Part shown: positions 18,062 to 21,779 of the stretch, piece after piece
How positions within the stretch are numbered: the first letter of the stretch is position 1
Layout: each line of letters opens with the position of its first letter
Program-made: the position numbers and the translations under genes
Notes under the pieces: generated by a model
What the model was told of the DNA's origin: nothing
Seen by the model: the letters and a program-made list of their open reading frames with translations, nothing else
Database searches by the model: none
Source of the DNA: Phytohabitans rumicis
Lineage (GTDB): Bacteria; Actinomycetota; Actinomycetes; Mycobacteriales; Micromonosporaceae
Length of the DNA: 64,000 nucleotides
Reading direction: 5' to 3'
Assembly (NCBI RefSeq): GCF_011764445.1
Contig: NZ_BLPG01000002.1
Span: 62,001-126,000 of the forward strand

Positions 18062-19126
18062 GTGTTGGAGACCTCGGCCCGGCTGCTGCGCATGCTGACG
18101 CTGCTGCAGGCGCACCGGGACTGGTCGGGCGCGGACCTGGCCGGGCGGCTCGGGGTGAGCCCGCGGACGGTGCGGCGGGACGTGGACAAGCTGCGCCTGC
18201 TCGGGTACCCGATCGACGCGATCGGCGGCGTCGGCGGTGGCTACCGGCTGGGCGCGGGCGCCGCGCTGCCGCCGCTGCTGCTCGACGACGAGGAGGCGGT
18301 CGCGGTGGCGGTCGGTCTGCGTACGGCAGCCGCGGGTGCGGTCACCGGCATCGCGGAGACGTCGGTGCGGGCCCTGGCCAAGCTCGACCAGGTGCTGCCG
18401 GCGCGGCTGCGGCACCAGGTCGGCACGCTCAGCTCGGCCGTGGTCACCATGCCGATGCTCGGCCCCACCATCGACCCGGCGGTGCTGACCGCGATCGCGG
18501 CGGCGGTGCGGGACCGGCAGCGGCTGCGGTTCGACTACACCCCGGCGGAGGGCGCGGCGGGCGTCCGCGACGTCGAGCCGTACCGGCTGGTCCAGAGTGG
18601 ACGGCGGTGGTACCTGGTCGGCTGGGACACCGGCCGGTCGGACTGGCGCACGTTCCGGGTGGACCGCATCGCGCTGCGCGTGCCCGGCGGGCCCCGCTTC
18701 GCCCCGCGGCCGCTGCCCGCCGAGGACCTGGCCGCGTACGTGGCGCTGGGCGTCACCACCCACCAGTACCGCTACCAGGCGGTGCTCACCATGCACGGCC
18801 CGGCGCAGGCGGTGGCCGACGAGGTGCCGCCCACCATCGGCGTGGTCGAGCCGATCGACGCGCACACCTGCACGCTGCGCATCGGCTCGGACAGCCTGGA
18901 CCAACTGGCCGTATGGGTCGCCGCGTTCGGCTTCGAGTTCGAGATCCGAGAGCCGCCCGAGCTGGTGGCGCACCTGCGGACGCTGACTGCTCGTTTGCAG
19001 CGGGCTGTCGGGGTCGCGGTGGGGGTTTCCGGGGCAGGGCGAGCTGCGAAGCCCGTCAGGCTTGATGTCTTCGCATCTCGCCCTGCCCCGGAAACCCTGA
19101 CCTGGTCAGGTTTGGGGCCGGGGTGA
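18062..19126 (+). CDS. WYL-domain (YafY/DeoR-type) transcriptional regulator with a repeat-derived tail
   Basis: A 354-residue regulator. Residues 1-60 form an HTH (RDWSGADLAGRLGVSPRTVR, VDKLRLLGYPIDA), followed by the hinge GGYRLGAGAALPPLLLDDEEAVAVA. The WYL domain centres on LRFDYT and PYRLVQSGRRWYLVGWDT. A C-terminal WCX region runs to LVAHLRTLTARL. WYL proteins bind ligands or nucleic acid and often control the divergent gene, here the NmrA-like protein. Start is GTG 18062. The last 35 or so residues are encoded by a hairpin element (19023-19097 and beyond), so the original stop codon has been replaced. A paralogue lies at 52159. Confidence 0.9.
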   Translation: MLETSARLLRMLTLLQAHRDWSGADLAGRLGVSPRTVRRDVDKLRLLGYPIDAIGGVGGGYRLGAGAALPPLLLDDEEAVAVAVGLRTAAAGAVTGIAETSVRALAKLDQVLPARLRHQVGTLSSAVVTMPMLGPTIDPAVLTAIAAAVRDRQRLRFDYTPAEGAAGVRDVEPYRLVQSGRRWYLVGWDTGRSDWRTFRVDRIALRVPGGPRFAPRPLPAEDLAAYVALGVTTHQYRYQAVLTMHGPAQAVADEVPPTIGVVEPIDAHTCTLRIGSDSLDQLAVWVAAFGFEFEIREPPELVAHLRTLTARLQRAVGVAVGVSGAGRAAKPVRLDVFASRPAPETLTWSGLGPG

Positions 19127-19180
19127 CTCGCGAAGACATCAAGCCTGACGGGCTTCGCGAGGCACCCCGGCCCCCAAACC
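19023..19180. repeat. Twin hairpins with different stems and a shared inverted 29-bp core
   Basis: Hairpin 1 has perfect 21-bp arms (19023-19043 begins GGGTTTCCGGGGCAGG; 19077-19097). Hairpin 2 has 17/18-bp arms (19109-19125 GGTTTGGGGCCGGGGTG; 19163-19180). Each encloses the same 29-bp core, in opposite orientation (19046-19074 and 19130-19158; starts GCGAAGCCCGTCAGG in hairpin 1), identical at all positions. The stem sequences are unrelated apart from their first bases, yet each is self-complementary. The element supplies the 3' end of the WYL gene and lies before the convergent ABC permease gene. Confidence 0.9.
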
Positions 19181-19200
19181 AGAACTAACCTCAACCCCGA

Positions 19201-21779
19201 TCATTCATAAGCGATAGCACGCAACACGTTGAGCCGAGCCGCCCGCCAAGCCGGCAACAACGAGGCGAGCACCCCCGCGACAACAGCCACAACCACGAAG
19301 ATCGCCAAACTCACCCAAGGAATCGCGATCGTGGTGAGGAAGTCGCGGTCGATGAGTGCCGCCGAGACCGCCGCGCCCAGGCTGACGCCGACCAGGATGC
19401 CGAGCAGGCAGCCGAACACCGCCATCACCACGGATTCGGTGCCCACCATGCGCATGACGCCACGCCGGTTGAGCCCGACCGCGCGCAGCAAGCCCAGCTC
19501 GCGGGTGCGCTCGTAGATGCTCAGCAGCAGGGTGTTGAGGATGCCGAGCAGCGCGATGACGATCGCGACGCCGAGCAGCACGTAGATGATGCCGAGCGCG
19601 ATGTCGACGAAGCTGTTGAACTGGTCCAGCAGGCTGGACCGGTCGCCGACCGTCACCAGCGGGAAGTCGGCCATGATCTCTTCGATCTGGGCGACCGCCG
19701 CCTGGGTGTCGGTGCCGTCGGCGACGTCGATGAAGCCCTGGAACGCCAGCGGGCCGTCGAAGTTGGCCACCGCCGACTTCGGCAGCACCATCGAGTCGGT
19801 CCAGATCGGCGTGGCGGCGTACACGCCGACCAGCTTGTACGGCTGCTCGCCGCCCTTGGCCAGCTCGACCGGCACGGACTCGCCGACCGCCCACCCGCGC
19901 GACTTGACGGTGTTTTCGTCCGCGGCGAACTCGCCCGGGCCGAGCACGCGTAGCTCGCCGTCGATCGTCTCCATGGCGAACACGTCCCGGGTGACCGCGA
20001 GGTCGTCGACGGCGAACAGGCCGCCGAACGGCGGGCCCTGCCCGTCGACCCGGGCGTCGAAGGCCGGGTAGAACGGCACCGCCCGCTGGACGCCGGGCAG
20101 CGCGCGCACCTTGTCCAGGGCCGCGTCGGAGAAGCCGATGGTGCCGTCGGGTGGCCCGGCGTTGGTGTTCGTCTGGATGATGATCTCGGCGCCGACCGTG
20201 GCGTTGATGGTGTCGTTGATCGTCTTGGTGAAGGACGCGCCCAGCACGCTGGCCGCGCTGACCAGGGTCACCCCGATCATCAGCGCCGCCGCGGTGACGG
20301 CGGTGCGGCGCGGGTTGCGCAGGGCGTTGCGCACGCCGAGGCGCCCGCTCATGCCCCAGCCGACGGCCCGGCCGATCAGCCCGGCGAGCGGGCGGGTCAG
20401 CAGCGGTGACAGCAGCGTCACGCCGAGGAACACCAGCCCGACCCCGAGCAGGAGCAGGGGCAGGGTGAGGCCGCCGATCCCGGTCAGCGCCGCGGTGACC
20501 AGGGCCGCGCCGGGCACGGCGAGGGCGGCGCCCACGATGGACAGCGTGCGCAGCGGCTTGTCGGGCCGGGCGATCTCGCGCATCGCGGCCAGCGGCGGGA
20601 CCGCGGACGCCCGGATCGCCGGGATGAGCGCGGACAGCACGGTGACCAGGACGCCCACCAGGTACGCGAGGATGATCGGGGTGGCCCGACGGTCACGCCG
20701 GCCCCGGGCAGTTGGGCGCCGATCAGCGAGGTGAGGGCGGCGCTGCCGGCCACGCCCAGCCCGATGCCGGCGAGCAGGCCGAGGGTGGAGCCGACCACGC
20801 CGACGATGATCGCCTCGACCAGCACCGAGCCGGTCACCTGCCGCCAGCTCGCGCCCATCGCCCGGAACAGGGCCAACTCCTGGGCGCGTTGGGCGACCAC
20901 GATGTTGAACGTGTTGAAGATCAGGAAGACGCCGACGATGAGCGCGACGATCGCGAACGGCCCGAAGAAGTACGTGGTGAGCTGGGACAGCCCTTCCTGT
21001 ACCGCGTTGGCCTGGTCCTCGTTGGCCTGCTCGCCGGTCTTCGCCTCGAACCCGGTCGGCACCAGCGGCGCCGCCTGGGTACGCAGCTCCTCCTGGGACA
21101 CGCCGTCGCGGGCGGCCAGGTACGCCCCGGAGAACAGCCCCTCGGCGCCGTAGAAGGTCCGCTGGGCGAACGGCTCGGTGAACAGCACCAGCGTCTCGCC
21201 GGCCAGCGAGTCCCGGTCGCCGCTGTAGGCGACCAGGCCGACCACGCTGAACTCGCGTGCCTCGTTGACCTCCGGCAGGTAGACCTTGAGCCGGTCGCCG
21301 ACCGCCGCGTGGGACTGCTCGGCGGTGTACCGCGACAGCACCAGCTCGGTGTCGGACGCCGGCCACCGGCCCTCGTCGAGCTCGACCAGCGCGAACGGGT
21401 CGTCGCCGGTGACGCCGCCGCCGATCTGCGGGGCGCCGGAGGTGGTCACCGGGTCGCCGTCGCGCACGTCGAACGGGATCACGCCGAAAGCGCTCACGTC
21501 GCCGGAGACGGCTCGGGCGCCGGGCAGCGCGGCCATCTGGTCGATCTGTGCCTGGGTCAGGCGTGGCTGCGGCTCCTCGTCGGCGGCGTCCTCGGTGAGC
21601 GCCACCTGGACGTCGACGTTCTGGTTGATGGAGCGGAACAGGGTCTCGAAGCGCGCGCCCAGCGAGTCGGTCAGCACGAACGCGCCGGACAGGAACGACA
21701 CGCCGAGGATGATCGCGACGATCGCGAGGGTCAGCCGGAGCTTGCGCGACAGCAGGCTCTTCAGGCTCGCCCGCAGCAT
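19201..21779 (-). CDS. FtsX-like ABC transporter permease (frameshifted)
   Basis: Two consecutive reading frames together encode one permease of about 859 residues of the actinobacterial eight- to ten-helix FtsX/MacB-like type. The first part (21779 down to about 20680) has the N-terminal helix TLAIVAIILGVSFLSGAFVL, a periplasmic domain and FGPFAIVALIVGVFLIFNTF. The second part (about 20684 to 19201) has ILAYLVGVLVTVLSALIPA, SGRLGVRNALRNPRRT and the final FtsX block with VGLNRRGVMRMVGTES. The frames change at about 20677-20687, where GGGCC-ACCCC would be in frame if one C were restored. It follows its ATPase with a 19-base overlap and exports lipids, peptides or lipoproteins. Confidence 0.88.

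Follow-up and report, generated by a model that had tools for sequence, protein, structure and literature searches.

Dispersed extragenic palindromes of the REP/BIME/REPIN type often occur as inverted doublets around a structured spacer, and lie mostly at the 3' ends of genes, between convergent genes (PMC3733652, PMC3116915). A hairpin element in the genome of Phytohabitans rumicis, found in a stretch of 64,000 nucleotides that is called the window here, resembles them in these respects; yet its stems measure 26-30 bp in contrast to 5-13 bp in REP sequences, and its constant part is the loop and not a tagged foot as in the GTAG/CGTC superfamilies. With MITEs the element shares the format of a short non-autonomous inverted-repeat unit (here ~285 bp for the short paired form) at many unrelated sites; unlike in MITEs, the outer inverted repeats drift around a constant internal loop, no target duplication was seen, and there is no known parent transposon. 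Bidirectional intrinsic terminators likewise place strong hairpins between convergent stop codons and show compensated stem changes, and by this analogy the hairpins of the element may function as transcription terminators; they differ in their long constant loop, the lack of a U-tract, their small copy number, their movement together with cargo, and the near-absence of G·U pairs. Finally, integron attC sites are folded, sequence-variable hairpins directly after a stop codon, and as in attC the hairpin could define a mobile unit; here, however, the loop is conserved rather than the ends, and each unit has two inverted hairpins.

Several identities were rejected. The RYYYAAC and GTTRRRY boxes of attC sites occur together in 0 of the 85 distinct units that were compared; no Rfam family matched at gathering score across eight loci, the sub-threshold matches being mostly to microRNAs; and intrastrand triplex motifs have, by definition, loops of 1-6 nt (PMC4666352), a range that does not accommodate this loop. 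No description of a loop-constant hairpin family was found in the open-access literature, and the family is apparently undescribed, provisionally so as most subscription journals lay outside the search; judged by title and abstract, no literature occurrence of the exact 12-mer at the heart of the loop concerns bacterial palindromes.

The hairpin pair and its copies in the Phytohabitans rumicis genome

The element occupies the junction between a WYL-domain regulator gene and a convergent gene, with the following features (window coordinates):

18062-19126, + strand: WYL-domain regulator gene (Pfam WYL, WCX, HTH_11); the element contributes its last 34 codons
19018-19102, + strand: hairpin 1, core in + orientation; an inverted repeat with arms 19018-19051 and 19069-19102 that folds as predicted
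19046-19074, + strand: copy 1 of the 29-bp core, an exact match containing the 12-nt heart GTCAGGCTTGAT
19096-19110, no strand: palindromic spacer CCTGACCTGGTCAGG, recognised by sequence, shrunken from ~130 bp in full-length pairs elsewhere
19111-19177, - strand: hairpin 2, core in - orientation; an inverted repeat with arms 19111-19135 and 19153-19177
19130-19158, - strand: copy 2 of the 29-bp core, inverted, an exact match
19201-21779, - strand: convergent gene, ABC-transporter permease-like by eye, delimited by its ORFs and the convergent junction; its stop codon lies ~20 bp from the element

The identical, inverted 29-bp core that the earlier note had reported in the two hairpins is exact at both positions; the hairpins themselves are real and somewhat larger than described there, with arms of 34 nt (91% complementary) and 25 nt (92% complementary) in place of 21 bp and 17/18 bp. 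Covariance-model matches reach 93.6 bits for hairpin 1 (C2:81022-81098, window 19022-19098) and 89 bits for hairpin 2 (C2:81107-81182, window 19107-19182). The chance expectation for the 29-mer in the window is 0.00 at up to 3 mismatches, and RNA folding of positions 19000-19200 yields -143 kcal/mol vs. -90.5 kcal/mol for shuffled sequences (z = -11.6); together with the copy count, these values rule out a chance origin of the hairpin pair. A scan of positions 18700-19500 revealed no U-tract at the element.

Within the genome (10.7 Mb, three contigs), the 29-bp core has 27 copies at up to 3 mismatches, compared to 0 for a reversed-pattern control; a covariance model based on 16 units recovers the same 27 copies when the best 150 candidates are scored. 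The copies are distributed over 15 sites, as 12 inverted pairs and three single hairpins, and the core stands in + orientation first and in - orientation second in 12/12 pairs. Most pairs flank a spacer of ~130 bp that has a central palindrome of its own and is homologous at ~8 unrelated sites, mostly with 70-86% identity; hairpin pair and spacer fold into one large structure. The earlier note had considered the two stems unrelated, and had expected a genome search for the core to find stems that differ from copy to copy. The core proved to be repeated, as the 27 copies attest; its stems, however, belong mostly to one class within this genome, both window stems, rich in G, have diverged from one consensus (GGTTTNGGGGNCGGGG...), and the stem of hairpin 1 was found again in a second pair 718 kb distant (C2:799295-799371).

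This arrangement invites comparison with a REP/BIME family mobilised by a RAYT (TnpA-REP) tyrosine transposase. The inverted hairpin doublets, the structured spacer and the location at gene 3' ends are those of REPINs and REP dimers (PMC3116915, PMC3733652), and doublets that form a larger hairpin, a REPIN trait, are represented by 12 (+,-) pairs in this genome and at least 21 elsewhere. The Y1 transposase (PF01797), however, has no match in the P. rumicis genome (estimated 96% complete) that holds the 27 copies, nor in 254 of the 355 family genomes; GTAG is found at the 5' foot in 1/85 units and CGTC in 0/85, with CTAC at the 3' foot in four units and GACG in 12, and conservation resides in the loop instead of the foot. 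With neither a Y1 transposase in the genome nor a GTAG/CGTC tag, a RAYT/REP identity was rejected, and mobilisation by a RAYT is highly improbable; by these defining features, tag and transposase, membership in the REP/REPIN group fails, although the unit works like a REPIN in outline.

A constant loop on covarying stems across the Micromonosporaceae

Across the Micromonosporaceae, stems of 26-30 bp carry the 12-nt heart GTCARGCTTGAT in their loop. This 12-mer has matches in 255 of 355 family genomes, with a maximum of 28 copies (controls gave 0 or 1 per strand); a 13-mer, searched in 297 genomes of the class, has at most two matches per genome, the P. rumicis genome excepted. Among GTDB representatives, an exact 21-mer matches Spirilliplanes, Winogradskya, Actinoplanes palleronii and one MAG, with stems that differ among these matches and are self-complementary in each. 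The 85 distinct units form 16 stem classes at 75% identity, all of them self-complementary, and the class representatives have 23-30 positions paired round the constant core. In alignment A1, 96.0% of cells pair, compared to 35-59% when slid; changes are two-sided in 21 of 33 pairs and one-sided in none, and the covariation score is 0.43 vs. 0.13 after shuffling, with the caveat that the units share descent and the counts are not independent. The constant loop on a free yet paired stem, as the earlier note had proposed it, thus finds strong support across genera, in 16 stem classes round one 12-mer and in two-sided covariation.

The kind of mismatch bears on how complementarity is maintained. 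Of 2,040 cells in the 85 units, 1,892 are Watson-Crick pairs, six are sense G·T, 20 are A·C, and 96 are C·T or T·C. In Bacillus terminators, the commonest intermediate is G·U (PMC5381666), and since this intermediate is nearly absent here, plain selection on one RNA strand fits poorly; template switching, in turn, can renew the two arms in a single step (PMC8794818). Renewal at the DNA level, or a requirement for folding in both strands, agrees better with the near-absence of sense G·T than RNA selection on a single strand does. The scarcity of G·U is not decisive, though: in a hairpin that has to form in either strand, such as a bidirectional terminator, this pair would be held down as well. 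The earlier note's interpretation is accordingly supported in part: its constant loop and paired stem are borne out by the covariation, and selection on RNA, which it had also invoked, is a weaker part (six sense G·T vs. 20 A·C cells).

Two further observations concern sequence outside the core. The C·T cells of the first alignment cluster at one position, and a recurrent C·T mismatch marks one stem position, 8 beyond the 21-nt core, in most P. rumicis units and in Spirilliplanes (17 of 27 units). In many genomes and across species, the stem is preceded by a weakly conserved flank similar to TGGTTGCGGTGGGG and followed by one similar to CCTGACGTGGTC or CCTTGCCTGGT.

Placement and retention at gene ends

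The units sit just past stop codons, mostly between convergent genes; gene calls were made with a simple home-made codon-usage caller, and orthology assignments were home-made as well. Convergent neighbours were found at 10 of the 15 sites in the P. rumicis genome, compared to 8 of 32 background junctions in the window (gap of at least 20 bp), and at 40 of 52 units elsewhere for which the caller placed a gene on either side, members of pairs being counted singly; tested against 25%, the binomial p is 8e-4 for the former and 6e-15 for the latter, values that ignore shared descent. The core commonly starts 35-55 nt past the stop codon. In tandem contexts, the setting in which orientation carries information, 13 units are sense and six antisense to the upstream gene.

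In genus g4, the hairpin is kept at the ends of three sets of orthologous genes (15, 7 and 5 units); the genes, named by eye, encode a PaaN-like aldehyde dehydrogenase, DNA polymerase I and a sortase. The sequence from stop codon to stem differs at these ends while the hairpin stays. In the 15-unit group at the PaaN-like end, arms and core are 98-100% identical, and the ungapped flank figures understate the similarity of the flanks. Stem changes at g4 gene ends are compensated, for example from CCCGACCCG/CGGGTCGGG to CCCGCCCCG/CGGGGCGGG. Since hairpin and loop are near-invariant at orthologous gene ends across many species and their flanks are different, the hairpins have been retained; this near-invariance also shows many of the copies to be old and stationary. 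In the relative G319 (L278, 757-882), the loop and half of the stem form four tandem repeats with a period of 38 bp at the end of polA, likely a slippage product of the hairpin.

The strongest rival explanation is a purely functional RNA element, specific to this lineage, that would act at gene ends only, either by terminating transcription from both sides or by protecting mRNA 3' ends, with the loop GUCAGGCUUGAU bound by a protein; additional copies would stem from ordinary duplication and gene conversion. The regular distance from the stop codon, the convergent placement, the conserved hairpins with compensated stems amid differing flanks, and the ordinary hairpins that take the same position in relatives are all in keeping with it. 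The rarity of sense G·T, unlike in Bacillus terminators, argues against it; with 1-28 copies per genome the element is no general terminator, and shared spacers and a hairpin-bounded cargo unit are left unexplained. On balance, this explanation appears rather unlikely.

At the window locus, the regulator gene stops inside the element, which forms its 3' end as the earlier note had stated; WYL homologues mostly align only up to residue ~316-327 of 354, and those inspected terminate there. The window copy has given the WYL regulator 34 new codons. On the opposite side, the orthologous permease gene end in three relatives has unrelated hairpins without the core; junctions within the genus are not syntenic, and what can be demonstrated are alternative hairpins, not a base-exact empty site. 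The permease-like gene itself is apparently split by a frameshift at window 20484-20658, where ORF 20484-21779 leaves the frame and a 721-aa ORF ending at 19201 takes over.

Spread, cargo units and a possible mobile element

What the earlier note could not see is that copies of the unit are spread over the genome, mostly in pairs, and have moved. In the relative G218, units of ~2.0-2.3 kb are found at four unrelated loci (L270-L273), each inside a (+,-) hairpin pair and all containing the same gene of ~197 aa, whose start resembles a secretion signal; the protein has only a sub-threshold lysozyme-like (SLT_3) match, and Pfam gave no match for the other G218 ORFs tested. The homology common to all four units stops ~20 nt outside the hairpins; between L271 and L272 it runs on for a few hundred bases on one side. 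The units may have their source in L270, since the gene next to it occurs together with the hairpin and a related gene in G334 too (L207). Among the inverted pairs listed for other genomes, 21/21 are (+,-) and none is (-,+). Inspection by eye revealed no consistent target duplication, the unit ends varying in sequence, and no recognisable transposase in the ORF lists of long-spaced pairs (G118, G069). Shared spacers, coreless hairpins in relatives, the WYL extension and the G218 units together show that the element has spread.

Alternatively, a rolling-circle-type HUH endonuclease could nick the loop, and the hairpin would be an origin-like site that is extruded during replication. Rolling-circle origins likewise combine an invariant loop with a variable stem, and CTTG|AT resembles the pC194-type nick. 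In 13 single-chromosome relatives, 84 of 122 unpaired sites carry the core on the leading strand, and so do 17/17 in three g30 genomes (G089, G092, G103); in several genomes, however, the strand bias is near even, and it may follow gene orientation. A plasmid search and a phage search gave only partial weak matches, and two scans of viral contigs gave 0 matches in one case and a single pattern match without a stem in the other; a phage or plasmid origin was rejected on these results, and a HUH endonuclease acting on the loop is improbable.

A dispersed family with constant loop, covarying stem, post-stop placement, pairs copied as one unit, and retention at gene ends is best explained as a non-autonomous mobile unit, REPIN/MITE-like, with ends that are read as folded hairpins via the invariant loop, at a probability of roughly 0.5. 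A putative factor acting in trans would read the loop of the extruded hairpin, probably a nuclease or recombinase that is structure-specific and acts on single strands, and the inverted (+,-) pair would define the mobilised segment. Template switching within the palindrome would renew stem complementarity in DNA, with both arms changing together. Copies would persist near stop codons because a strong hairpin then ends each of the convergent genes; such a gene-end hairpin could act as a two-way transcription terminator or as a guard of the mRNA 3' end. It is also possible that the units spread without any transposase, via recombination or template switching between hairpins. More tentatively, and with the odds somewhat against it, the family may represent a new class of mobile element, in which a non-RAYT enzyme reads the invariant loop, stems evolve freely, and genes are carried between two hairpins, and which many Micromonosporaceae have domesticated to form structures at gene ends.

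Known bacterial palindromic repeats hold their feet or ends constant; here the loop is constant and the stem drifts in lock-step, which amounts to a natural experiment on hairpin maintenance. As the changes are two-sided and skip G·U intermediates, the choice between RNA selection and DNA renewal by template switching is directly testable. If an enzyme reads the loop, industrially important actinomycetes would hold an unrecognised system that moves hairpin-bounded genes.
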